A DNA stretch of 36,858 nt from Ectothiorhodospiraceae bacterium (GTDB lineage: Bacteria; Pseudomonadota; Gammaproteobacteria; Nitrococcales; Aquisalimonadaceae), in assembly GCA_007134055.1 (NCBI GenBank), contig SLLM01000337.1, positions 1-36,858 on the forward strand, given 5' to 3'. The notes under the pieces were generated by a model. It did not search any database. It saw only the letters and a list, made by a program, of their open reading frames with translations, and was not told where the DNA came from. The position numbers and the translations under genes are program-made. Positions 23,777-36,836 of the stretch are shown here, one piece after another (position 1 is the stretch's first letter; each line of letters opens with the position of its first letter).

Positions 23777-25207
23777 CTATCCCTTGATACAGACCAGCGG
23801 CGACAGGCGGGCCACGCGTCGGGCGAGCCCGGCATGGTGCGCCGCGTCCACCACCCGGTCCACGTCCTTGTACGCGCCGGGTGCCTCCTCCGCCACGCCC
23901 CGGCTGGTGGGGCTGCGGATCAGGATTCCGCGTTCGGCGAGTTGATCCACCAGTTCCCGCCCGTGCCATCGCTTGTAGGCCTGGCGACGGCTCATGGCGC
24001 GGCCGGCCCCGTGGCAGGCCGAGGAAAAGGCGAGGGTCTCCGATTCCACCGTTCCCACCAGCACATGACTGGCGGTGCCCATGGAACCCCCGATCAGGAC
24101 CGGCTGTCCCCAGGGACGCAGCGGAAGAGGCAACAGCGGGTTGCCCGGACCCAAGGCCCGGGTGGCTCCCTTGCGATGGACGAACAACCGGCGCTGGCCC
24201 CCGTCAATCGTGTGCGTTTCCTCCTTGCACGTGTTGTGGGAGACATCGTAGAGCAGGTCCAGGGAGACATCGGGAAACAGGTGGCGGAACACGCGACGCG
24301 TCAGATGGGTGATGATCTCCCGGTTGGCGAGGGCGCAGTTGGTGGCAGCACGCATGGCGCCCAGATAATCCTCTCCGGTCCGTGACTGCAGCGGCGCGCA
24401 GGCCAGTTCCCGGTCAGGCAGGTGAATACCATGGGATGGCGCCTCGGCCGCCATGCGTTTGAGGAACTCGGAGCCGATCTGGTGACCGAGCCCGCGGGAA
24501 CCGCAGTGAATGCTGATCACGATCTCGCCCTGACGCAGGCCGAAGCCGGCGGCGGTCTCGGAATCGAAAATATCGCTGACTTCCTGCACCTCCAGGTAGT
24601 GGTTGCCGGAGCCCAGGGTGCCCATCTCGTTGCGTTGCCGGTGCCGGGCCTGGTAGGACACGCACTCCGGGCGGGCCCCTTCCATGCAGCCATGCTCCTC
24701 GATGCGCTCCAGATCGGCGGCGTCGCCCCATCCCTGTTCCACCGCCCAGCGCGCGCCGCCCTGGAGCATGGCGATCAGCCCGGGATCGTCCAGGTGAATG
24801 CTGCCGCGGCTGCCCAGGCCGGCGGGTATGGACGCATCCAGTGCATCCGCCAGTACCCGCTTGTGGGGCTCCAGTTCCGCGCGTTGCATGCCGGTGGTCA
24901 GCGTGCGAACGCCGCAGGAAATGTCGAAACCCACGCCGCCGGCAGAGATAACGCCGCCCTGGTCAGGGTCGAACGCGGCCACGCCTCCGATGGGAAAACC
25001 ATAGCCCCAGTGGGCATCGGGCATGGCATAGGAGGCGCTGACAATTCCCGGCAGGCGGGCGACATTGCTTACCTGCTCGAAGACCTTGTGATCCATGTCC
25101 CGGATCAGGGTTTCATCCGCGTAGATGATGCCCGGTACGTGCATTCCATCCCCGGGGGGAATGGTCCAGATCCAGTCCGAATCCCGTTGCAGCAGATTGA
25201 TGTCCAT
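23777..25207 (-). CDS. rtcB: RNA-splicing ligase RtcB (3'-phosphate/5'-OH RNA ligase)
   Basis: Mn2+/GTP-dependent ligase that joins RNA 2',3'-cyclic phosphate or 3'-phosphate ends to 5'-OH ends, used in RNA repair. It has 476 residues, the length of the archaeal/metazoan-type enzyme. The metal and guanylation residues are intact: Asp95 and Cys98 in GFDISCGVR, His203 in GSGNHYLE, His234 in SIHCGSRG, His324 in DVSHNT, and the guanylated His399 in ACHGAGR. These correspond to Pyrococcus horikoshii D95, C98, H203, H234, H329 and H404. GAGGT precedes the ATG at 25205-25207 by 6 nt. Archease ends 7 nt upstream, so the ligase and its activator are one unit. Confidence 0.96.
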   Translation of the reverse strand: MDINLLQRDSDWIWTIPPGDGMHVPGIIYADETLIRDMDHKVFEQVSNVARLPGIVSASYAMPDAHWGYGFPIGGVAAFDPDQGGVISAGGVGFDISCGVRTLTTGMQRAELEPHKRVLADALDASIPAGLGSRGSIHLDDPGLIAMLQGGARWAVEQGWGDAADLERIEEHGCMEGARPECVSYQARHRQRNEMGTLGSGNHYLEVQEVSDIFDSETAAGFGLRQGEIVISIHCGSRGLGHQIGSEFLKRMAAEAPSHGIHLPDRELACAPLQSRTGEDYLGAMRAATNCALANREIITHLTRRVFRHLFPDVSLDLLYDVSHNTCKEETHTIDGGQRRLFVHRKGATRALGPGNPLLPLPLRPWGQPVLIGGSMGTASHVLVGTVESETLAFSSACHGAGRAMSRRQAYKRWHGRELVDQLAERGILIRSPTSRGVAEEAPGAYKDVDRVVDAAHHAGLARRVARLSPLVCIKG

Positions 25208-25214
25208 GGCGACC

Positions 25215-25673
25215 TCACACATCCACCACGCACTGCGCGCGCCACTGCCCGTTGTGGCGATGCGTTACCGCCAGCTCGGTAAGCGTGGCGCCCTTGACCT
25301 CGACGGCGGGCTGATGGTGTTCCCGGTCAATGGATTCGCCGTAGAGTTTGGCGGTCAGGCGGTTGCCGGCGATGCGGACCTCGAAGTGGGAAAACAGCAT
25401 CTGCCGGGTGGTGACCTGGTAGACCACCGCATCGATCCAGTCCACGAACAGCAGTTCCGGATCCGGGTTCTCGCAGCTCACCTCGATGACCTGGCGGGGA
25501 CGGACCGTATCGGGATCGCATATCACGGCCGTGAGCCCCAGGGCGGCCTGCTCGAAGGCTTCCTCCATGCTGCGGCCCATGCCACGGATGCCGATGTCGG
25601 AACCGTGGTTGAAATGCCGCCAGCGCGGCTGGAGGGTGGTACCGGTCCCCGGTTCTCGGTTCATGCCGCTCAT
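25215..25673 (-). CDS. Archease (RtcB activator)
   Basis: A 152-residue protein of the archease family, which speeds guanylation and turnover of RtcB. Conserved features seen: FNHGSDIGIRGMG (His23, Asp26; metal-binding region), a central LLFVDWIDAVVYQ helix, and VEVKGATLTELAV near the C-terminus, ending in a terminal Asp. The start at 25671-25673 overlaps the upstream DUF3775 stop by 4 nt (ATGA); an alternative ATG at 25664 has GGATGAG before it. Placement directly before rtcB supports the call. Confidence 0.9.
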   Translation of the reverse strand: MSGMNREPGTGTTLQPRWRHFNHGSDIGIRGMGRSMEEAFEQAALGLTAVICDPDTVRPRQVIEVSCENPDPELLFVDWIDAVVYQVTTRQMLFSHFEVRIAGNRLTAKLYGESIDREHHQPAVEVKGATLTELAVTHRHNGQWRAQCVVDV

Positions 25674-26059
25674 CCGCAGCGATAGCCCAGCAGCTCCAGT
25701 CCGTCCGTGAGATAGGTAGGGAGCAGCGGGTGGGCGATGAGATAGTCCGCCGTATAGGGCGTCCAGGCGTCATTCACGTCCCGCAGCAGTGATTGCCATT
25801 CCTCCACCTCGTAATCACCGCGCCCCAGCCAGAGCAGCGCCACCACCTGCTCCTGCTGTCCCCGGTCCAGATCGTTGATGATGGAACGGAACTCGTCCAG
25901 CGTGGAATCGCCCGCGTGGCTGGCAAGCATCTGCATCGGCCAGTCCTCCGTCGCGCTGCTGGGCTCGTCTTCGATCGCCACCGCCTCCTGGGCGTGGAAC
26001 TCCTCGGCCAGTTGGATCAGCCGGCAGACATTGTCCGGATTCACCTCAAGGCTTGGCAT
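25670..26059 (-). CDS. DUF3775 family protein
   Basis: A 129-residue, acidic, helical cytoplasmic protein. Features typical of DUF3775 are VNPDNVCRLIQLAEEFHAQEA at the N-terminus, the central DEFRSIINDLDRGQQEQVVALLWLGRGDY, and the C-terminal YTADYLIAHPLLPTYLTDGLELLG. The family has no established function. The ATG at 26057-26059 has AAGGAGG just upstream with a short spacing of 4 nt; the ATG at 26074 is less likely because that element falls inside it. It is first in an operon with archease (4-nt overlap), rtcB and the metallothionein-like gene, so a role linked to RNA repair is a reasonable guess. Confidence 0.8.
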   Translation of the reverse strand: MPSLEVNPDNVCRLIQLAEEFHAQEAVAIEDEPSSATEDWPMQMLASHAGDSTLDEFRSIINDLDRGQQEQVVALLWLGRGDYEVEEWQSLLRDVNDAWTPYTADYLIAHPLLPTYLTDGLELLGYRCG

Positions 26060-26132
26060 CCAACCTCCTTCCATCGTGGTCTGGACGGGTAATTGGGCAC
26101 TCCCTCCCTCTGATGCTCCGGAGTCCCTCGGT

Positions 26133-26174
26133 AGCATAGGCCCGGGGTAGGGTTCGGGCGTTGATTGGCGTCAA
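26133..26174 (-). promoter_or_regulatory. Class II FNR/FixK-type promoter of the DUF3775-archease-rtcB operon
   Basis: The dyad TTGAT-TGGC-GTCAA (26161-26174) matches the FNR/FixK pattern at 9 of 10 positions. On the minus strand a -10-like TATGCT (complement of 26133-26138) is centred 32 bp from the dyad centre. That is the spacing expected when the activator is centred at -41.5. The DUF3775 start is about 75 bp further on. Confidence 0.62.
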
Positions 26175-26202: not shown

Positions 26203-26907
26203 TCACTGCGGGTGGGTGCCCGGCTGTCCGCGGCCTGGCGGGGAGCCGGCGATCTGCAGGAGCTCGGCGGCGTCGCGGATGGTGATGTGATTATGGTCCA
26301 CGGTCAGCCAACCCCGATCCCGGAATCGGCTCAGCACCCGCGAGATGGTTTCCGTCGCCATCCCCAGGTAGCGGGCAAGATCGTATCGCGCCATGGGCAA
26401 AACGAAGTTCCGCTGGCTGCAGCCCCGCTCCGCCTGGACTTCCCCGTAATCCAGCAGGAAGCGGGCCACTCGGCCCTCGGTGCTGCCCCGGTCCATCTGC
26501 AGCAGATGGACCAGACGCAGAATCTCCCGGTACATCTCGGTCATGAGGTTGGGGCCGTGGGGCACTTCGGGCTCCGCTGGTTCCTTTCGGTGCTGCAGGG
26601 CAAGCACTTTGGTGGTATCCAGGGCGACGACCCCGCAGAAGGTCTGCTGTCCGATCAGGGCCTCGAATCCGACAACGTCGCCCGGCATGTGAAAACCGAT
26701 CACGCACTCCTGACCGTGTTCATCGGTGACATAGCTCTTGAGAACACCCGCAATGATCAAATGCGGGTATTGGATGGTTTCCCCGGCATGGAACAGATGT
26801 TCCCCGCGTTGCAGGATTCCCCGCTCCCTGGCCCCGGCTTGACTCGGCCCGGGCCGGGCTCGACCCAGAGGGTCCGGTTGTTCGAAAGGCAGTACCTGGG
26901 CTGTCAT
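26203..26907 (-). CDS. Crp/Fnr family regulator, FixK-like (no Fe-S cysteines)
   Basis: Transcription activator of 234 residues. The cyclic-nucleotide-binding-like beta-roll (RGEHLFHAGETIQY...GFHMPGDVVGFEALIG), dimer helix (about 115-140) and C-terminal winged HTH (MARYDLARYLGMATETISRVLSRFRDRGWL) are clear. The recognition helix has Glu186, Ser189 and Arg190, the E--SR set that in FNR reads TTGAT/TTGAC half-sites. The N-terminal CX2CX5C cluster and the central cysteine of FNR are missing; only Cys68, 91 and 163 remain. That suggests control of its expression and not direct oxygen sensing, as for FixK. GAGGT lies 7 nt before the ATG. Four matching dyads lie in this window. Confidence 0.9.
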   Translation of the reverse strand: MTAQVLPFEQPDPLGRARPGPSQAGARERGILQRGEHLFHAGETIQYPHLIIAGVLKSYVTDEHGQECVIGFHMPGDVVGFEALIGQQTFCGVVALDTTKVLALQHRKEPAEPEVPHGPNLMTEMYREILRLVHLLQMDRGSTEGRVARFLLDYGEVQAERGCSQRNFVLPMARYDLARYLGMATETISRVLSRFRDRGWLTVDHNHITIRDAAELLQIAGSPPGRGQPGTHPQ

Positions 26908-27026
26908 CTGTGGCACCTCGATTCGGATTGTGAGACTGGCTGTCCGGGCGGGACGGTTATCCAGAAACATAGTCCGGGAGGCGCAAGGCGGTAGTGAGGG
27001 GATCCCCGTATACCGGCGCAGCTCGC

Positions 27027-27431
27027 TCAGTCGGGGCGGGGCAGGAGTTGGTGGATTGTTGTCAACAGCGCCGTGCCGTCGATGGGTTTCGGCATGATTT
27101 CTGTAACGCCCGCGGCCCGGGCGCGGGCTGCCTGCGGCCCATGGGGCTGACCGGTCATCAGGATGGTGGGGATTTCCAGGCCCTTCGCCCGAAGACGTTC
27201 CTGCAGCTCGGCCCCGTTCAGGCCCGGCAGATGCAGGTCTAGCAACAGGCAACCGGCGACCGTCGTGCCGGCATCCGCCCGGATCGCGGCCAGCAGATCC
27301 GAACCGGAAGCGAAGGCGGCAGCGCAGAAGCCGTTTACTTCGAGCAGTAGTTTCAGTCCGTTCCGGACTGCCTCATTGTCATCGACGACATAGATGACGG
27401 CGTGTGCTCGCTCTGACCAGGGTCCTGACAT
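27027..27431 (-). CDS. Single-domain response regulator (receiver only)
   Basis: A 134-residue CheY-like receiver without an output domain. The acidic pair is in YVVDDNE (Asp17-Asp18), the phosphoacceptor is Asp65 in CLLLDLHLPG, the conserved Thr is in ILMTGQP and the Lys in IMPKPI. It resembles FixJ-type receivers and may act as a phosphate sink or relay for the kinase at 28143-30053, like FixT-type or single-domain modulators in other systems; this is inference. The start at 27429-27431 has no good ribosome binding site. It sits between fixJ (86-bp gap) and the Crp/Fnr gene (119-bp gap), all on the minus strand. Confidence 0.88.
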   Translation of the reverse strand: MSGPWSERAHAVIYVVDDNEAVRNGLKLLLEVNGFCAAAFASGSDLLAAIRADAGTTVAGCLLLDLHLPGLNGAELQERLRAKGLEIPTILMTGQPHGPQAARARAAGVTEIMPKPIDGTALLTTIHQLLPRPD

Positions 27432-27517: not shown

Positions 27518-28153
27518 TCAGCGCTGCTGCTGAGCGGGCAAGCTCATCAGATGGTCGGCGAGCCGGGCCAACTCGGCAGCGGAGGCCAGTTCCAGTTTTC
27601 TCATTGCGCGCCCCCGGTGCACCTCCACCGTGCGTTCACTGATGCCCAGCTCCAGGGCGATCACCTTGTTGGCCTTGCCCTGGGCCGCCAGCCGCGCGAC
27701 TTCGGTCTCCCGTCGGGTGAGGCGCCGGATCCTGACGACTATCGCGTCGTCCATGAGCCGCTGCGCCATGAGCCCGCGGTGCCGGTCGATCATTTCACCG
27801 ACAAGGGGGAGCAGGCGGGAGCCCTGCAGTGCGGGCTTCTCGATAAAATCCGCGGCGCCGTGCTTCATCGCCCGCACCGCCGCGGGAACGCTGGCATTCC
27901 CGGTAAGAAAGGCCACTGGAACATCCGAACCGGTCTCCCGGAGGCGCTCCTGGATCTCCAGCCCGTTCATGTCCGGCATCTGCAAGTCCAGAAGGATGCA
28001 GGTGGGGTGATCCGCCAGCTCCGCCTGCAGGAATTCCTTGCCCGTGGCGAAGGCCCGGGTGGCGTAGCCGGAAGCGGCCAGAAGCAGGCCCAGGGCTTCC
28101 CGGACGCCGGAGTCATCATCAACGATGATGACCATGCTCTGTTCAGGCTGCAT
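27518..28153 (-). CDS. FixJ-type two-component response regulator (receiver + LuxR-type HTH)
   Basis: A 211-residue NarL/FixJ family activator. The receiver has VDDDSG, the phosphoacceptor Asp56 in CILLDLQMP, Thr in FLTGNASV and Lys in IEKPA. The GerE/LuxR-type HTH spans about 138-195 (RRLTRRETEVARLAAQGKANKVIALELG, SERTVEVHRGRAMRKL). The linker and the hallmark GNASVPAAVRAMKHGAADFIEKP match FixJ and TodT/StyR-type regulators. The start overlaps the upstream kinase gene by 11 nt, so the two are translationally coupled. In rhizobia, FixJ activates fixK; the Crp/Fnr gene at 26203-26907 is the natural local target. Confidence 0.93.
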   Translation of the reverse strand: MQPEQSMVIIVDDDSGVREALGLLLAASGYATRAFATGKEFLQAELADHPTCILLDLQMPDMNGLEIQERLRETGSDVPVAFLTGNASVPAAVRAMKHGAADFIEKPALQGSRLLPLVGEMIDRHRGLMAQRLMDDAIVVRIRRLTRRETEVARLAAQGKANKVIALELGISERTVEVHRGRAMRKLELASAAELARLADHLMSLPAQQQR

Positions 28154-30053
28154 GACCTGCGTCCCCGCTCGAGGGAAGCCGAATCATGAACTCCGCCCCG
28201 CCGTCCGCGCCGTTGTCCACGGTGAGCTGCCCGCCATGGGCTTCGATAATGGATTTGCAGATGGACAGCCCCTGGCCCAGGCCGTGTTCCTTTGTGGTAA
28301 AGAAGGGGTCGAACAGCCTGTCCCGATCCGCTTTCCGGATGCCGGAGCCTGAATCCGTTACCGTGATGGTGCAGGCGCCGGCCTCCGGCTGTCTGCGGGT
28401 GACAATGCGCAGGATGCGCTCGCCCTCCATTTCCCGCATCGCGTCGATGGCGTTCCGCACCAGGTTGAAGACAACCTGCTCGATCTGGACCTTGTTGATC
28501 AGGCACCGGCAGGTGATCCTTTCCAGATCGAGTCTGACAGTGACTCCGGTACTTTCCAACTCATGGTCCAGCAGGTCCAGCACGTCCTGGATGACCTGGC
28601 CGATGTTCTCGGGGGCGACATCCTGAGGCTGGTCCTTTCGTACAAAGGTATGCAACTGCCGGATCACCCGGTTGGCCCGCTGGCTCTGGCGGTGGATCTG
28701 TTCCAGCGCTTCCTTGAGGGTGTCCTGCACGGTGTGGCTTGCACGGATGAGGCTGAGCGCGGCCTCGGCGGCCGCGTTGATGGCGGTGAGCGGCTGGGAT
28801 ACTTCGTGAGCCAGCCCCGCGCTGAACTCGCTGACCGCGTCCAGCCGGGTCAGGTGCGCCAGCCGGGTCAGGTGCTCCCGAGCTTCGCGCTCCGCCTGCC
28901 TGCGCGCGCTGAGGTCATGCACGAAGCCCACGAAGCGTCGTTCACCGTCCTCGAAAAACTCGGAGATGGCCAGCTGCACATCGATGTGGTGTCCATCCTT
29001 GTGCCGTCCGGTGACTTCACGGCCCAGCCCGATGACGTGGGGCCGGGATGTCGCCAGGTAACGGCGAATGTAGTCGTCATGGTGGCTCTGGTCGGGTTCC
29101 GCCATGAGCATACGGATATTCCGGCCCACCACTTCCGTATACCGGTAGCCGAACAGCTTCTGGGCCGCCGGATTGAGGTCGAGAACGATACCTTGAGCGT
29201 TGATGGTGATGATGCCGTCAATCGCATTATCCAGGATCATGCGGCTGCGCTGCGTCTCTGCCGCCAGGCGTTTGCGCAGCTGCTGCTGCCGGGAGAGATC
29301 CACCGCCAGTATGTACAGACCCGTCACCATTCCCTGATCGTCCAGGCGCGGGGTATAGGTGCCATGAATGAAGCGGGATCCGCCACGGGCGTAGGGCACT
29401 TCCCCATGGTAGTTGGCGGTGCTGCCGGCCAGCGCCTGGGCGAACTGGGGGCGCAGGACGGCAAAGGCCTTGCGTCCGATCACATCGCGTATGTGCTTTC
29501 CCAGTTGCGCTGCGGGATCGAGCCCGAACCACTCGTGGTAGCCCTTATTCGCGAACCGGACGCGGTAGTCCCGATCCAGCTCGGCGGCCAGCATCGGCAG
29601 CCCGTTCACCAGGCGGTGCAGCGGGGTTTCATCATGCAGGGGCACCGTCCGCCGTGACGGGGCCATGGCGTCCGGTGTGCCGGTTGCAATGATGCGCCGC
29701 ACGCGGCTCTGGTCATCAGCAAGCGTGCTGTATTGCCAACGAATCTGCCTGGCATCACCGTGCCGGCTCATCCACCAGCCGGTTTGTTCCACCACCGTCG
29801 CACCGGTGCTCAGGTGCGCCACCAGCTCCCGTAGCGTCTCCCGGTGTTCGGGCAGCGCGGCCACGTCCCAGATGGGCAGGCCTTGCACCGCGCCAGCCTG
29901 CTGGCCGGTGAGCCGCTCGCACTCACGGTTGAACAGTTCGATCCGACCGTGGGGGTCGGTGGCGACCACCAGCAGGCCTGGCACCTGGAGCAGACAGCGG
30001 AGTACGCCGGTATCCCGGTCGGGATGTGGGTTGGCGGCAGTGAACCCCTCCAT
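28143..30053 (-). CDS. FixL-type sensor histidine kinase with three PAS domains, third likely heme-binding
   Basis: A 636-residue cytoplasmic kinase with no membrane segment. PAS1 is about 18-125, PAS2 about 145-255 and PAS3 about 265-385. PAS3 (ILDNAIDGIITINAQG...) has SHHDDYIRRYL and IGLGREVTGRHKDG: His325 aligns with the proximal heme ligand of rhizobial FixL (His200 in Bradyrhizobium) and Arg345 with the oxygen-contacting Arg220. HisKA carries His416 in GLAHEVSQPL. The ATPase domain has Asn534 in NLVRNAIDAM, DSGSGI, FDPFFTTK and GLGQGLSI. fixJ overlaps its 3' end. Heme binding is predicted from alignment by eye. The start at 30051-30053 lies just before PAS1; the upstream 211 bp hold no clear promoter. 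Confidence 0.92.
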   Translation of the reverse strand: MEGFTAANPHPDRDTGVLRCLLQVPGLLVVATDPHGRIELFNRECERLTGQQAGAVQGLPIWDVAALPEHRETLRELVAHLSTGATVVEQTGWWMSRHGDARQIRWQYSTLADDQSRVRRIIATGTPDAMAPSRRTVPLHDETPLHRLVNGLPMLAAELDRDYRVRFANKGYHEWFGLDPAAQLGKHIRDVIGRKAFAVLRPQFAQALAGSTANYHGEVPYARGGSRFIHGTYTPRLDDQGMVTGLYILAVDLSRQQQLRKRLAAETQRSRMILDNAIDGIITINAQGIVLDLNPAAQKLFGYRYTEVVGRNIRMLMAEPDQSHHDDYIRRYLATSRPHVIGLGREVTGRHKDGHHIDVQLAISEFFEDGERRFVGFVHDLSARRQAEREAREHLTRLAHLTRLDAVSEFSAGLAHEVSQPLTAINAAAEAALSLIRASHTVQDTLKEALEQIHRQSQRANRVIRQLHTFVRKDQPQDVAPENIGQVIQDVLDLLDHELESTGVTVRLDLERITCRCLINKVQIEQVVFNLVRNAIDAMREMEGERILRIVTRRQPEAGACTITVTDSGSGIRKADRDRLFDPFFTTKEHGLGQGLSICKSIIEAHGGQLTVDNGADGGAEFMIRLPSSGDAGHAA

Positions 30054-30264: not shown

Positions 30265-31398
30265 TCAGCGCATTTCCGTTCGTCGCGGTTCCTTGGGCAC
30301 CTCCCGCACCTTGAAATGCTGATCCAGGTCGTCCAACAATGCGGTGATGCCCGTGTACTCCAGCTCATCCATGGGCAGCATGGCGGCGCCGAAGAATCCC
30401 TGTCGCCGCATGGTGATCGCCTTGTCGGTCACCTGACGCCGAACCCCTTTCCAGAAAGGGTGGGCGAAGACATCCAGCGGCTCGGTAAGCTTGCCTTCAT
30501 GGACACAAAAAGCAGCACCCGTGATGATGGGCGGGCCATCGAAGTAGCTGATTCCGGATCCCAGCGGGACCGGCATCAGCGGCATATTGTGGGAGCCGCG
30601 CATGCCGCCACCCACGTAGTGACCGGTTGCAAACGGGGCCAGGATTTCCCCGGTGGCAGGGAAATCCTTTTGTACGCGCACCAGCATGACCGGGTCGTCC
30701 TTGCCCGTGTATTTGCCGGCGATGTTGTGGAGTCGTGAGGTTGACGCCGCAACAGCCTGTTCGCCGGATTTCCGTGACGACACCGATTCCACCACGTAAC
30801 GCTCCGGATCCCGGAGCAGGGCGGCGATCCGGTAAAGATCCTCCGGCGCGTTCAGCTCGATGATGCGGTCTCCCTCGGTGTGCGCCACGTCCATGATCAC
30901 GAAGGTGAACCCCTCGGTCAGTGCGGGGGATAGCAGCAGACCAGGAGTGTTCATGGGATCGGCGAAGGCGGCGTAAAGTGGGAAATTGAAGGCACCCGGA
31001 TCGGTCTTGTCCGCGGCGAAGAACACAAAAGGCTCGGCTTCCCGCTCGGTGATGGTCATCTCCGCGACCCCCGGACCCATGCCTTTGACGTTGCCGGAGA
31101 AGGCGTCCGTCAGTAGGTCCTGACCCGCGCCGTAAAGGCCCTGGCGGCGGGCCGTGTCGGTGCCCGCCTGGAAGGCGTTCCAGGCAAGCTCGTGTACGTC
31201 CGGGTGGCCGCTGCCGTGGACATGGGTCATGAGCAGTGCGATATCGTCACCGGTGGAACTCACGTGACTGTCCAGGAGCAGACCGGCGCCCTGGCGGGCG
31301 AGGACTTCCCGTACGCGCGCGAGCAGCGCCTCGGAAGGCGCGATATGACCGCCGATGGAGCCGATGTCTGCCTTGAGGACGCTGAGCGTGATGTCCAT
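30265..31398 (-). CDS. Class V fructose-1,6-bisphosphate aldolase/phosphatase (archaeal type)
   Basis: Bifunctional gluconeogenic enzyme that condenses triose phosphates to FBP and dephosphorylates it to fructose 6-phosphate. It has 377 residues. Family signatures in order: KADIGSIGGH at the N-terminus, STGDDIALLMTH (metal ligands), GAGQDLLTDAFSGNVKGMGPG, EPFVFFAADKTDPGAFNFPLY, and IAGKYTGKDDPVMLVR with the Schiff-base Lys of GKDDP. Such enzymes are typical of archaea and deep-branching bacteria and scattered in proteobacteria. Start 31398 has GGAGGG 6 nt upstream; the ATG at 31404 abuts that element. It is divergent from the glucan phosphorylase gene, with a shared FNR-type dyad between them. 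Confidence 0.93.
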   Translation of the reverse strand: MDITLSVLKADIGSIGGHIAPSEALLARVREVLARQGAGLLLDSHVSSTGDDIALLMTHVHGSGHPDVHELAWNAFQAGTDTARRQGLYGAGQDLLTDAFSGNVKGMGPGVAEMTITEREAEPFVFFAADKTDPGAFNFPLYAAFADPMNTPGLLLSPALTEGFTFVIMDVAHTEGDRIIELNAPEDLYRIAALLRDPERYVVESVSSRKSGEQAVAASTSRLHNIAGKYTGKDDPVMLVRVQKDFPATGEILAPFATGHYVGGGMRGSHNMPLMPVPLGSGISYFDGPPIITGAAFCVHEGKLTEPLDVFAHPFWKGVRRQVTDKAITMRRQGFFGAAMLPMDELEYTGITALLDDLDQHFKVREVPKEPRRTEMR

Positions 31399-31467
31399 GG
31401 CCATCCCTCCCGATTCATGGTGTTTCCGTCATGCCGTGGATGCTCCGCGGTCGGGTTTCGCCACGCA

Positions 31468-31481
31468 TTGACCGCGGTCAA
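31468..31481. promoter_or_regulatory. FNR/FixK-type dyad between the divergent FBPase and glgP genes
   Basis: TTGAC-CGCG-GTCAA is a perfect 5-bp inverted repeat. It is almost centred between the start codons, about 76 bp from the FBPase start and 72 bp from the glgP start. Rightward, TAGGAT (31505-31510) is centred 33 bp away, near the class II activation spacing. Leftward no convincing -10 is seen at that distance. Confidence 0.65.
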
Positions 31482-31546: not shown

Positions 31547-34102
31547 ATGCGCGGGAAAGACTATCCGCTGGAAGTGCGTCCTCAACTGCCTGCGGCACTC
31601 TCCCGGTTGAATCAGCTTGCGGACAACCTCTTCTATAGCTGGGATCGCCGCGTCCGCGGGCTGTTCTTCCGTATGGATCCGGCGCTCTGGAAACGCTGCG
31701 GCCACAATCCCACAGTGTTTCTGCGACGGGTCTCCCAGGCGCGGCTGGATCAGTTGGCCGCAGACCGGGACTTCCTGCTTCAGTACCAGGACGCGCTTGC
31801 TGCCTTCGACGCTTATCTGGAGCCGGGACCGGATCGTCCGGGGAACGTGATTCCCGGCCTGGACCCCGGCCGCGATCTGATTGCCTATTTCTGTATGGAG
31901 TACGGGTTGCATGAGAGCCTGCAGCTCTACTCCGGGGGGCTTGGCATTCTCGCGGGTGATCACTGCAAGGCTGCCAGTGACCTGGATTTGCCCTTCGTCG
32001 CCGTGGGGCTGATGTACCGGCAGGGCTATTTTGTCCAGACCATCGATCGTGATGGCGCGCAGCAGATGCATTTCCGCCCGGTTAATCTGGATGATCTGGC
32101 GGTTCACCCCGTTCACGATGCCGGGGGCGCCCGGCTCCGCATCAGCGTGGACTTCCCCGAGCGCCAGGTGTTTGCCGCCATCTGGAAGGCTGACGTCGGG
32201 CGCGTGCGCCTGTACCTGCTGGACACGGAGCTGCCGGAGAACCGGCCGGAAGACCGGGGAATCACGTACCAGCTCTACGGCGGCGACCGATCCGTACGTA
32301 TTGCCCAGGAGATCATCCTCGGGATTGGCGGCGTTCGCGCCCTACGTGCGCTGGGCTTGAACCCCACGGTCTGGCACATCAACGAGGGGCACGCGGCGTT
32401 CCTCATCCTGGAGCGCTGTCGCGAACTGGTGGCCGGGGGGCTGCGATTCGATGCAGCGCTGGAGGCAGTGGCCTCGCCGACGGTTTTCACCACCCATACC
32501 GCGGTTCCGGCTGGTCACGATCTGTTTTCCCACGCGCTGGCGACACATTGTCTGGGGCCGTTGGCGGCGGAGCTGGGCATCAGCGAGGGGCGACTGCTGG
32601 CGCTGGGAGCCTCACCCCAGGGGGCGGATATGTTCAATATGACGGCCCTGGCACTGCGGGGTTCCCGCCAGCAGAACGCGGTGAGCGCGGTACATCGTCA
32701 TGTGGCGGCGGAAATGGAAGCCCACGTCTGGCCGGACGTTTCGCCGGCGGAGAGCCCACTGCGTTCGGTTTCCAACGGAGTCCACTTGCCCACGTTTCTT
32801 GCCCGGGAATGGGTGGCCATGTTCGACGGCCGGTGCCCCGACTGGCGTCAGCACCTGAATGACGACGGTTTCTGGCGGGAGGCCATCGAGGCGATTCCCA
32901 ACCACCGCTACTGGAGTCTGGTGCAATCGCTGAAGAGCGAAATGCTGGATGACCTCGCCCCGTACCTGCTGACCCAGTACGAGCGGAATCACTTCAGCCG
33001 GGCACGGATCAATGCCATTCGGGAAACATTCTCGTCGGAAAATACCCGGCCGCTGATTCTGGGATTCGCCCGGCGCTTTGCAACCTACAAGCGGGCCCTG
33101 CTGATATTCCAGGACTTGCAGCGCCTGGCGCGGTTGCTTCAGGATCCGGAACGCCCGGTCATCATGCTGTTCGCCGGCAAGGCTCATCCCCAGGATATGC
33201 CTGGCCAGACCCTGATCCGGCGGGTGCATGAATTCGCTTCCCGAGAACCGTTCCTAAACCGGGTTTTTCTCATCGAGGGTCATGACATCGCCCTGTCCAG
33301 GAAGCTGGTGACCGGTGTCGACGTCTGGCTGAACACCCCGGAATTCCCCATGGAGGCGAGCGGCACGTCGGGACAGAAGGCGGCCATCAACGGCGGCGTG
33401 AACCTGAGCATTCTTGACGGCTGGTGGAGGGAGGGGTTCGACGGGAGCAATGGCTGGGGCATCGAACCCCACGGTACCGACCTCCCGCCGGAGGAAAGGG
33501 ACCGGGTGGAGGCGCAGGAACTGCTGGATCTGCTGGAGTACGAGATCATTCCGGAATATTTCGACGTGGGGCCGGGGGGGTATCCGCCGGCCTGGGTCGC
33601 GCGCTGCAAGCGGTCCATGTGGACGGTCCTGCCACGGTTCAATGCCGAGCGTATGGTGATGGATTACGCGGAGCGGATGTACGTCCCGGCGGCCCGTCAG
33701 GGCCGGCTTCTTACCGCCGGGGAGGGCAAGGGGGCGGAGGAGCTGGCGCAGTGGAAAGCCCGGGTGAGTGACGCGTGGTCCGGAGTCGCCCTCGGCTGGA
33801 GCGAGCCGCCCCCTTCCGTGGTGTCAGGCGGTCGTCAGGTATGCTTGCGTGTGGCGGCCCGGCTCAATGGGCTGACACCGGACGATGTGGTGGTTGAATG
33901 CCTGCTGGAGGAGGACGGAACCGATCCGGGCTTCTTGCACCGGCACCGTTTCAGTTGCACGGGCGGGGAGGACGGGGCGCATCAGTTCGGGCTGGACCTT
34001 CCCCCTCCGGACAGCGGCCTGTTCCGTATGCGGGTCCGCATGTACCCCTTCCATACCCAACTGCTACACCGGTTCGAGATGGGCCGGATGACCTGGCTCT
34101 AA
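31547..34102 (+). CDS. glgP: Alpha-glucan phosphorylase (GT35, DUF3417-containing GlgP)
   Basis: Pyridoxal-phosphate enzyme that releases glucose 1-phosphate from glycogen or maltodextrins. It has 851 residues, the length of the alpha-glucan phosphorylase subfamily that begins with DUF3417 (LSRLNQLADNLFYSWD...RGLFFRMDPALW), distinct from E. coli GlgP/MalP. YFCMEYGLHESLQLYSGGLGILAGDH is the active-site N-terminal motif region, with WHINEGHAAF and FARRFATYKRA further on. Lys611 in EASGTSGQKAAING binds PLP; most relatives have Met where Gln610 stands. AAAGGAG lies 6 nt before the ATG. An FNR-type dyad is 65 bp upstream. Confidence 0.94.
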   Translation: MRGKDYPLEVRPQLPAALSRLNQLADNLFYSWDRRVRGLFFRMDPALWKRCGHNPTVFLRRVSQARLDQLAADRDFLLQYQDALAAFDAYLEPGPDRPGNVIPGLDPGRDLIAYFCMEYGLHESLQLYSGGLGILAGDHCKAASDLDLPFVAVGLMYRQGYFVQTIDRDGAQQMHFRPVNLDDLAVHPVHDAGGARLRISVDFPERQVFAAIWKADVGRVRLYLLDTELPENRPEDRGITYQLYGGDRSVRIAQEIILGIGGVRALRALGLNPTVWHINEGHAAFLILERCRELVAGGLRFDAALEAVASPTVFTTHTAVPAGHDLFSHALATHCLGPLAAELGISEGRLLALGASPQGADMFNMTALALRGSRQQNAVSAVHRHVAAEMEAHVWPDVSPAESPLRSVSNGVHLPTFLAREWVAMFDGRCPDWRQHLNDDGFWREAIEAIPNHRYWSLVQSLKSEMLDDLAPYLLTQYERNHFSRARINAIRETFSSENTRPLILGFARRFATYKRALLIFQDLQRLARLLQDPERPVIMLFAGKAHPQDMPGQTLIRRVHEFASREPFLNRVFLIEGHDIALSRKLVTGVDVWLNTPEFPMEASGTSGQKAAINGGVNLSILDGWWREGFDGSNGWGIEPHGTDLPPEERDRVEAQELLDLLEYEIIPEYFDVGPGGYPPAWVARCKRSMWTVLPRFNAERMVMDYAERMYVPAARQGRLLTAGEGKGAEELAQWKARVSDAWSGVALGWSEPPPSVVSGGRQVCLRVAARLNGLTPDDVVVECLLEEDGTDPGFLHRHRFSCTGGEDGAHQFGLDLPPPDSGLFRMRVRMYPFHTQLLHRFEMGRMTWL

Positions 34103-34135: not shown

Positions 34136-34177
34136 TTGACGGCGGTCAACCCGCCAGCGCCGGTGGTGCGTTAGGGT
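34136..34177 (+). promoter_or_regulatory. FNR/FixK-type promoter of the GAPDH gene
   Basis: The dyad TTGAC-GGCG-GTCAA (34136-34149) is a perfect inverted repeat. TAGGGT (34172-34177), a weak -10, is centred exactly 32 bp downstream, the class II spacing. The GAPDH start codon is 46 bp further on. It is nearly identical to the 31468 site. Confidence 0.62.
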
Positions 34178-34223: not shown

Positions 34224-35219
34224 ATGCCGGTCCCAGTTGCGATCAATGGTCTTGGGCGTGTTGGCCGCGCCGTGCTGAAGATCCTGCAGGAACATGAAGA
34301 ATTCGAACTGGTCGCGGTCAATGATGTGGCCAGCCCGGAGGATCTTGCTTATCTGCTGCACTATGACTCCTTCTACGGTCGCTATCACAAGCCCGTGCGC
34401 CATGAAGGCGATGCGTTGATCATCGGTGAGACCCGGTGCAGGGTCCTGGGTGAGGCGGATCCTGCCCGCCTGCCCTGGTCGCAACTGGGTGTGGCACTGG
34501 TACTCGACTGCACCGGCAAGTTCACCCGGCGGGAGGAGCTGCAGAAACACCTGGATGCCGGTGCGCAACGAGTGCTGCTGTCGGCTCCGGCCAAGGGGGA
34601 GGATGTGCCCTTCGTGGTCTACGGCGTCAACGAGGTGGAGGCAGATGCGCAGATCATCTCCTGTGCAAGCTGCACCACCAACTGCATCGCGCCGGTGATC
34701 GAAGTGATGGGCCGGCGGATCGGCGTGCGCAAGGCCATCATGACCACCATCCACTCCTACACCGTGTCCCAGCCGCTGGTGGACGTACCCGCGAAGAAGC
34801 GCCGCCGGGGCCGGGCCGGAGCGATCAATTTCGTGCCCACAAGCACCGGTGCAGCCCAGGCAACCACGCGGGCGCTTCCCCAGTACGAGGGGCGATTCGA
34901 CGGCGTGGCGGTGAGGGCTCCCGTACCAGTGGGATCCATGGCGGACATCACCCTGGTCACGGAAAAGCCCACCAGTGCGGAGGAGGTCAACGCCATCTTC
35001 GAAGAAGAGGCGGCCACCCCGCGTTACCAGGGGGTTCTCGGTGTGACGCGGGATGCCATTGTCTCCTCCGACATAATCCAGGACCCGCGGGCTTCCATCG
35101 TTGATTTATCGCTCACGCAGGTGGTGGACGGTGATCTGGTGAAGATCATGAGCTGGTACGACAACGAATGGGGCTATGCCGCACAGATGGTCCGGCAGGC
35201 CCTGCGGCTGGTCGGCTGA
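34224..35219 (+). CDS. gap: Glyceraldehyde-3-phosphate dehydrogenase, type I
   Basis: Oxidises glyceraldehyde 3-phosphate to 1,3-bisphosphoglycerate with NAD(P)+. It has 331 residues. The Rossmann motif INGLGRVGR is at the N-terminus, the catalytic Cys150 is in SCASCTTNCIAP, His177 is in TIHSYT, and C-terminal SWYDNEWGYA is the family signature. The S-loop reads VSQPLVDVPAKKRRRGRAGAINFVPTSTGAA by segments; the (S/A)QxxVDxPxKKxRRGRA form resembles haloarchaeal and some other non-enterobacterial GAPDHs more than E. coli GapA (NDQ...LDLPHKDLRRARA). Start 34224 has GGGGGAG 7 nt upstream. It is likely a dedicated low-oxygen isozyme. Confidence 0.95.
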   Translation: MPVPVAINGLGRVGRAVLKILQEHEEFELVAVNDVASPEDLAYLLHYDSFYGRYHKPVRHEGDALIIGETRCRVLGEADPARLPWSQLGVALVLDCTGKFTRREELQKHLDAGAQRVLLSAPAKGEDVPFVVYGVNEVEADAQIISCASCTTNCIAPVIEVMGRRIGVRKAIMTTIHSYTVSQPLVDVPAKKRRRGRAGAINFVPTSTGAAQATTRALPQYEGRFDGVAVRAPVPVGSMADITLVTEKPTSAEEVNAIFEEEAATPRYQGVLGVTRDAIVSSDIIQDPRASIVDLSLTQVVDGDLVKIMSWYDNEWGYAAQMVRQALRLVG

Positions 35220-35267: not shown

Positions 35268-36836
35268 ATGCCCGCTGCCGTCCTGTTCGACATGGACGGG
35301 GTAGTGACCGATACCGCAGCGGCTCATGCTGCGGCCTGGAAGCGCCTGTTCGACGAATATCTTCAGCGCCGGGCGGAACGGGAGGGAAAACCGTTTCTCC
35401 CGTTCGACAGCAGAGCGGATTACACCCGATACGTGGACGGAAAGCCGCGCAACGAGGGGGTCGTCAGCTTTCTGCGATCCCGGGGTATCGAGCTTCCTTG
35501 TGGGGCACCGGATGAAGGGGCGGATTGCGAGACGGTGTGGGGTCTCAGCAATCGCAAGGATCGCTATTTCCACGCCTGGCTTGAGACACACCGGGTGCGC
35601 GCATTCCCGGGAACCTTGCGGTTGATCGGAGAGTTGCAGGCGGCCGGTATCCCCATCGCCGTATTCTCGGCCAGTCTCAATGCGGAGGTCGTCCTGCGCA
35701 GCGCGGGAGTTCTGGAGCTGTTCGATGCACGATTGGACGGTGCAGAGTTGTCACGGCTGGGGCTTTCCGGAAAACCCGCGCCGGACATGCTGCTGGAAGC
35801 GGCGCGGCGGCTGAACGCCCCGCCGGCGGAGACCGTGATCGTGGAGGACGCCATAGCCGGTGTTCAGGCGGGCCGCACTGGCGGTTTCGGTCTGGTGGTG
35901 GGGGTGGACCGGGGGGCCGGGCATGACGCCTTGAACACCGCCGGTGCGCACCTGGTGGTGGATGATTCCGGCGAACTGCGCTGCGTCCCCGGCCGGGGGC
36001 TGGAGTGCCGCCGGCTGGCCGACTTGCCCTCTGCGCTGGATCGGGAGGACGGGGTTCGCCGGCGTCTGGCCGGACGGCGGGCGACGGTTTTTCTCGACTA
36101 CGACGGTACGCTGACCCCCATCGTCCAGGACCACACCCGGGCCTGCCTTCCCGCGCCCATGCGGGCGGCGGTGGTACGGCTCGCCCGCTGCTGCCCGGTC
36201 ACCATCATCAGCGGTCGGGATCTGGCTCGCCTGCATGAGTTGGTGGCGCTGGAGTCGGTCACGCTGGCGGGCAGCCATGGATTTCAGATCACCTTGCCCG
36301 AGGGCAGGGGGGGCGGCCTTGAGAAGGGATCCGAGTTCCTGCCGCTGCTGGATCAGGCGGAACGGACGCTGCGCCGGCGGCTGGCGGACATCCCCGGTCA
36401 CGATGTGGAGCGTAAGCGGTTCAGCATCGCCGTTCACTACCGGCAGGTAGCCGACGGTGACGTGGCCGCCCTGCGTGCGGTAGTTGATGAAGTTCTCAAG
36501 ATGCATTCGCAGTTGCGGCTTGGCCATGGCAAGAAGGTGTTCGAGATCCGCCCCGACGTTTCCTGGGGCAAGGGGCATGCCGTCCAGTGGATCCTGCGTG
36601 AGCAGGGCCTCGACCACGCCGGGGCCGTTCCCCTGTACATCGGCGACGATCTCACGGATGAGGATGCCTTTCGCGTTCTGGCGGGCTGGGGCATCTGCAT
36701 CGCCGTGCGTCACCGGGAGGATCGTCGGACGGCTGCCGACTTTACGCTGGCGGACGTTTCCGAGGTCCGGAAGCTGCTGGAACTGCTGCCCGCGGTGATC
36801 CGGGGGCGGAGCTCCCGGGGAGGAGAGACGCCGTAA
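35268..36836 (+). CDS. Beta-phosphoglucomutase-like HAD / trehalose-6-phosphate phosphatase fusion
   Basis: A 522-residue two-domain protein. The N-terminal half (about 1-245) is a HAD-IA hydrolase of the beta-phosphoglucomutase type: nucleophile Asp8 and acid/base Asp10 in LFDMDGVVTDTA, then VDGKPRNEGVVSFLRSRG and VEDAIAGVQAG. The C-terminal half (about 265-505) is OtsB-like: Asp277/Asp279 in FLDYDGTLTPIV, IISGRD, HGKKVFEIRP and YIGDDLTDEDAF. It would convert beta-glucose 1-phosphate to glucose 6-phosphate and remove phosphate from trehalose 6-phosphate. Start 35268 (GGCGGGG upstream, just before the HAD motif) is preferred to 35241. Its stop overlaps the next start (TAATG). Confidence 0.88.
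   Translation: MPAAVLFDMDGVVTDTAAAHAAAWKRLFDEYLQRRAEREGKPFLPFDSRADYTRYVDGKPRNEGVVSFLRSRGIELPCGAPDEGADCETVWGLSNRKDRYFHAWLETHRVRAFPGTLRLIGELQAAGIPIAVFSASLNAEVVLRSAGVLELFDARLDGAELSRLGLSGKPAPDMLLEAARRLNAPPAETVIVEDAIAGVQAGRTGGFGLVVGVDRGAGHDALNTAGAHLVVDDSGELRCVPGRGLECRRLADLPSALDREDGVRRRLAGRRATVFLDYDGTLTPIVQDHTRACLPAPMRAAVVRLARCCPVTIISGRDLARLHELVALESVTLAGSHGFQITLPEGRGGGLEKGSEFLPLLDQAERTLRRRLADIPGHDVERKRFSIAVHYRQVADGDVAALRAVVDEVLKMHSQLRLGHGKKVFEIRPDVSWGKGHAVQWILREQGLDHAGAVPLYIGDDLTDEDAFRVLAGWGICIAVRHREDRRTAADFTLADVSEVRKLLELLPAVIRGRSSRGGETP

Follow-up and report, generated by a model that had tools for sequence, protein, structure and literature searches.

Most of what is known of the FixLJ-FixK cascade comes from rhizobia, Caulobacter and their relatives, in which nitrogen fixation, denitrification and the cbb3 oxidase are under its control. 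The FixL of Bradyrhizobium diazoefficiens has two PAS domains and is encoded in a fixLJ-bll2758-fixK2 locus. The genes there follow the order fixJ-bll2758-fixK2 (PMC9104804); in the heme PAS domain of B. japonicum FixL (BjFixL), His200 is the iron ligand and Arg220 hydrogen-bonds the bound ligand (PMC10765370). The FixL of Sinorhizobium meliloti is anchored in the membrane and lacks additional PAS domains. The FixJ site of this species is TAAGTAATTTCCCTTA (PMC4999443). In Caulobacter, a FixLJ-FixT-FixK cascade operates outside nitrogen fixation and includes a single-domain receiver in its circuit.

The window, that is, the whole stretch of DNA analyzed here (36,858 nucleotides from an Ectothiorhodospiraceae bacterium), contains at 28143-30053 an open reading frame whose product probably represents a deep gammaproteobacterial FixL lineage, within a FixLJ-FixK cascade that would tie storage-carbon metabolism to low oxygen. 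The kinase resembles B. diazoefficiens FixL in the HRHR residues of its heme PAS domain, in a 91-residue spacing and in being soluble, with N-terminal PAS domains, but it possesses three PAS domains, reaches low NCBIfam scores and falls in a separate clade. The two loci share the fixL-fixJ-receiver-fixK order and boxes of the TTGA-N6-TCAA type, whereas the predicted cluster targets here are glycogen and trehalose genes, and no nifH above cut-off was found in the host metagenome-assembled genome (MAG), which is 88% complete. With S. meliloti FixL the kinase has in common the equivalents of H194 and R214 as well as the linker length, and unlike that protein it is soluble. The likeness to Caulobacter lies in a cascade outside nitrogen fixation with a lone receiver in the circuit, but the targets differ, and the four-cysteine motif of FixT is absent from the receiver found here.

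The fixL-fixJ-receiver-fixK cassette

The cassette consists of four genes, with a candidate FixJ operator in the gap between the receiver gene and fixK:

28143..30053, minus strand: fixL, soluble histidine kinase (636-aa ORF; Pfam and PDB alignment)
27518..28153, minus strand: fixJ-type response regulator, receiver plus LuxR/GerE HTH, overlapping fixL by 11 bp
27027..27431, minus strand: lone receiver, a single-domain response regulator that retains its acceptor Asp and Lys
26995..27010, minus strand: candidate FixJ operator with the palindrome TACGGGGATCCCCTCA, 87 bp ahead of the fixK start
26203..26907, minus strand: fixK, Crp/FNR-type regulator, ETISR recognition helix, N-terminal FNR cysteine cluster absent

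The coordinates, strand and residue numbers that the original prediction gave for fixL proved exact, and the soluble nature it proposed for the kinase, without any membrane helix, agrees with a top 19-residue hydropathy mean of 1.31. Comparison of the full protein with the genome contigs yielded a single weak relative, and the sole conserved stretch on the 5' side of fixL is the ACTAGACT block. The best family match of the kinase is the rhizobial FixL model of NCBIfam, NF041777, at 307 bits; since this lies under the cut-off of 850 and the model is rhizobial, the protein is filed as FixL, not as rhizobial FixL. NCBIfam FixJ is the best match of the fixJ product, at 175 bits, also under its cut-off (255), while the fixK product, which displays the Crp/FNR fold and the E-SR recognition helix expected of FixK together with the lack of an N-terminal cysteine cluster, scores 60 bits with the Caulobacter FixK equivalog NF050806 and does not reach the cut-off of 300. 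Being devoid of this cluster, the cassette FixK should not sense oxygen alone.

The order fixL-fixJ-receiver also occurs in the related genomes G003, G009, G012, G010 and G011, and is followed by fixK in G003, G009 and G012. A receiver gene is likewise located 3' of fixJ in many alphaproteobacterial fixLJ loci, including the Bj-like L177, L180, L182 and L188; with fixJ-bll2758-fixK2 of B. diazoefficiens as a further example, the gene order is thus a known one. In G413, a genome from another family, the same four genes stand beside a divergent fructose-1,6-bisphosphatase (FBPase) gene, with a box in between. In G011 (L132, G011:C136:2738-5543), fixK adjoins genes for a phasin and a phaB-like SDR reductase, ahead of a fixL start, which possibly links that cassette to PHB storage. 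Assignment of the lone receiver as a FixT was rejected on account of the missing four-cysteine motif, a single conserved Cys being present in seven orthologues; it is possible that the receiver works like FixT, and it probably tunes FixL or FixJ.

A FixJ-like palindrome is located ahead of fixK in seven genomes (that of the window, G003, G009, G012, G005, G011 and G013), and G413 has a different palindrome. The version present in G012 and G011 is a perfect palindrome, TAAGGGGATCCCCTTA, that matches the S. meliloti FixJ site at 11 of 16 positions. Since the window copy matches at 9 of 16, no better than shuffles, which equal this value, the likeness to a FixJ site rests on the G012/G011 form. 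The core GGGGATCCCCT was detected in 20 of 196 loci, every one of which holds such a fixK or a fixK upstream region, and it lies upstream of fixK also where this gene is separate from fixLJ. An additional GGGGATCCCCT site in G005 (L056:10364-10374) precedes a gene that by eye is cyclopropane-fatty-acid synthase-like, and constitutes a possible further FixJ target.

PAS domains of the kinase

The domains of FixL extend as follows, in residues of the protein, with window positions for the second and third PAS domains:

aa ~16-130: PAS1
aa ~143-256: PAS2 (window 29268-29633)
aa ~265-385: heme-type PAS3, listed with H325, R331, H339 and R345 at FixL heme positions as 28878..29270, minus strand (aa 262-392)
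thereafter: HisKA, with H416, and HATPase

Pfam places PAS3 at 271-380 (E 2e-33), PAS2 at 150-256, HisKA at 407-475 and HATPase at 521-628, with a weaker PAS1 at about 41-124, so that both of the additional N-terminal PAS domains first noticed by reading the sequence were recovered, PAS2 clearly and PAS1 weakly. Among PDB sequences, PAS3 finds B. japonicum FixL at the top (E 1.9e-30), followed by S. meliloti FixL (E 1.4e-26) and then by E. coli DosP (7e-16). The alignment of PAS3 with the crystallized BjFixL heme domain is gap-free over 120 residues, 53 of which are identical, and it pairs H325, located in SHHDDYIRRYL, with H200, and R345, located in GLGREVTGRHKDG, with R220, in agreement with the roles of proximal heme His and distal Arg originally assigned to them by eye. 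In the same alignment R331 corresponds to R206 and H339 to H214, and the hydrophobic distal residues I215, I216, L236 and I238 of BjFixL become V340, I341, L361 and I363, the pocket being the same except for one Ile-to-Val replacement. H325 and R345 are invariant in 7 of 7 orthologues of the same family, among which R331 and H339 are variable. In related genomes, both His and Arg are present in 41 of 42 heme-type PAS domains (score over 60 in the fetched loci), as opposed to 0 of 18 distant PAS matches from the same loci, several of which are partial alignments, and the pair is therefore more than chance.

The distance between the heme His and the phospho-accepting His of FixL is 91 residues (325 to 416), the value that published numbering also gives for BjFixL (200 to 291) and SmFixL (194 to 285); in a phylum-wide scan this spacing was found in nearly all FixL-type kinases, other heme-PAS kinases displaying mostly 75, 89 or 98. 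A tree built from 61 cores unites the cassette FixLs of gammaproteobacteria in a single clade (SH-aLRT 100). Its neighbor is an alphaproteobacterial FixL clade (support 95) to which the Bj/Sm-like proteins belong, among them some that share 92-94% identity with the heme domain of BjFixL, and the branch that joins the two clades has a weak support of 72. The prediction that PAS3 is a heme sensor of the FixL type is strongly supported by the gap-free alignment, the pocket residues, the 91-residue spacing and the adjoining FixJ. That PAS3 is instead a heme-free PAS domain, in which the motif was retained by descent alone, is highly improbable: the AlphaFold2 model obtained from single-sequence input (pLDDT 54, TM about 0.36 to FixL, rmsd over 12 A) has FixL at the top of the list in a structure comparison but is too poor to place H325 or to count as evidence, and the proximal His is gone in one relative, yet His, Arg and pocket residues are retained in orthologues at 50-70% identity. 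The relative in question is G413, whose FixL (L164:2287-3774) has no PAS1 and carries a Tyr at the proximal position, with the distal Arg and the remaining pocket retained; its heme would be either altered or lost.

PAS1 and PAS2 were rejected as heme domains, the His/Arg pair being absent from both in the alignment, and comparison of PAS2 with the PDB gave no significant match (best E 0.02). PAS2 is the most conserved of the PAS domains, with identities of 81, 79 and 64% in three three-PAS relatives versus 72, 69 and 56% for PAS3, which makes a second input plausible; PAS1 and PAS2 may add such an input to FixL. This higher conservation, together with the fact that G413 keeps PAS2 while its PAS3 has lost the heme His, also speaks for a kinase with a heme-bound PAS3 that reports redox, NO or CO, or in which the main sensing falls to PAS2, PAS3 being secondary. 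We regard this as quite unlikely, considering that the features on the ligand side of FixL, R345 and the hydrophobic distal residues, are retained throughout, as is the FixL linker length, and that the FixL of G005 has retained PAS3 and lost PAS2.

Boxes at storage-carbon genes and their reader

Genes of glycogen and trehalose metabolism border the cassette, and three FixK/FNR boxes lie in the window:

30265..31404, minus strand: class V FBPase, also a neighbor of the fixL cassette of G003, of G009 and of G413 (other family)
31547..34102, plus strand: alpha-glucan phosphorylase, glgP, DUF3417 type
34224..35219, plus strand: glyceraldehyde-3-phosphate dehydrogenase (GAPDH)
35268..36836, plus strand: fused beta-phosphoglucomutase-like HAD and trehalose-6-phosphate phosphatase
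26161..26174, unstranded: box TTGATTGGCGTCAA, before DUF3775-archease-rtcB, -10 TATGCT 22 nt on
31468..31481, unstranded: box TTGACCGCGGTCAA, FBPase-glgP gap, -10-like hexamer 22-23 nt off on both sides
34136..34149, unstranded: box TTGACGGCGGTCAA, ahead of GAPDH, -10 TAGGGT 22 nt on

The DUF3417-type glgP is confined to those three genomes whose cassettes are closest. The cassettes of G003 and G009 stand beside a cluster that comprises FBPase, glgP, GAPDH, trehalose phosphatase, GH65, treT-like, treZ, treY, malQ, GH57 and glgC, its middle part having been read in G003; G009 adds glgB and glgA. These clusters carry the same boxes as the window, and both TTGACCGCGGTCAA and TTGACGGCGGTCAA are conserved in the two genomes. 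On the other side, rtcB, archease and the DUF3775 gene (window 23777-26137) form a conserved group that adjoins the cassette and is preceded by a FixK/FNR box.

Genome-wide, 30 TTGAYNNNNRTCAA boxes were counted, versus 4 for the reversed control; 3 of the 30, all intergenic, are in the 37-kb window, where 0.29 would be expected by length (Poisson P about 0.003). Further boxes precede ccoN, nirK, narX/narK and glgB, as well as hsp20 and universal stress protein genes, these two being identified by eye. Common to the carbohydrate-gene boxes is TTGACNGCNGTCAA, a TTGAC..GC..GTCAA sub-motif that occurs 3 times in the genome (control 0), always in the glycogen cluster, with glgB on another contig. 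It is found 5 times in G003, 5 times in G009 and 0-1 times in 11 family genomes without the cluster, the reversed control giving one match over 14 genomes.

In class-II promoters the box is centered near -41.5, and the distance of 22-23 nt between box and -10 corresponds to this spacing. Over 18 box-promoter pairs, a number that overstates the sample because orthologous promoters are not independent events, the mean best score of the -10 is 5.98 at 22-23 nt and about 3 at most other offsets; the ccoN, nirK and narX boxes have the same class-II spacing. The glgB/glgC box of G009 resembles the FBPase/glgP box in having a -10 on both sides, which suggests that one palindrome can be enough for a pair of divergent promoters. 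A symmetric box, TTGATCCGGATCAA, also occupies the gap that separates narX from a divergent nitrate-transporter-like gene (L061, G000:C176:22667-22680), and exact copies of it recur in relatives.

The same genome encodes a canonical FNR (contig C275), full-length and above the curated cut-off, which resembles the cassette FixK in its Crp/FNR fold and similar DNA boxes and differs from it in the N-terminal cysteine cluster, absent from FixK. This FNR could read some or all of the boxes. The kinase might then still be a FixL, with FNR reading the boxes of the glycogen cluster and the cassette a mere neighbor with few targets, an arrangement that fits the very similar sites recognized by FixK and FNR (PMC4999443) and the presence of FNR-box-like sites in 14 of 14 family genomes, with or without the cassette. 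It is nevertheless considered unlikely, as TTGAC..GC..GTCAA occurs once or never in the 11 relatives without the cluster despite their FNR-type regulators, and cassette and FBPase box are found together in another family too (G413). Cluster and TTGACNGCNGTCAA box coincide in their distribution, over three genomes, and the specificity of the box is for this reason inseparable from the presence of the cluster.

A predicted FixLJ-FixK regulon on storage-carbon genes is well supported in silico. In such a cascade, PAS3 would bind heme through H325, with R345 on the distal side, and would sense O2, whose departure from the heme would activate the kinase, as in rhizobial FixL. FixL would phosphorylate the adjacent FixJ; FixJ~P, as the conserved site suggests, would bind the GGGGATCCCC palindrome and turn on fixK, and FixK would in turn bind the TTGACNGCNGTCAA boxes in the class-II promoters that drive FBPase, glgP, GAPDH and glgB. 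TTGAT-type boxes at ccoN, nirK and narX may be bound by it as well. Glycogen/trehalose metabolism and low-O2 respiration would consequently rise together under micro-oxia. In its most specific form, which is put forward tentatively and with some doubt, the heme sensor would control both synthesis and breakdown of glycogen and trehalose via the dedicated TTGACNGCNGTCAA box, including the divergent-promoter boxes, with PAS2 integrating a second signal.

The host and the reach of the cascade

The host MAG carries bchX, pufL, ccoN and nirK, the first two of which, at L165 (G000:C288), are above the NCBIfam cut-off; the genes between them include some that by eye resemble bchY, bchZ and a light-harvesting gene. 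Judged by these genes, the host combines anoxygenic phototrophy with respiration at low O2. Nitrogen fixation was considered as a role and rejected, the only strong nifH-like match being BchX; because nitrogenase was not found, it is not an evident role of the system.

A search of the available literature found no report of FixLJ-FixK acting on glycogen genes, which is no proof of absence. The cassette and the promoter boxes are more interesting than the heme motif of PAS3. If the proposed regulon is true, it would provide a set of promoters by which to tell FixK from FNR specificity within one genome, and it would extend the FixLJ-FixK cascade to the control of storage carbon in a deep gammaproteobacterial lineage.
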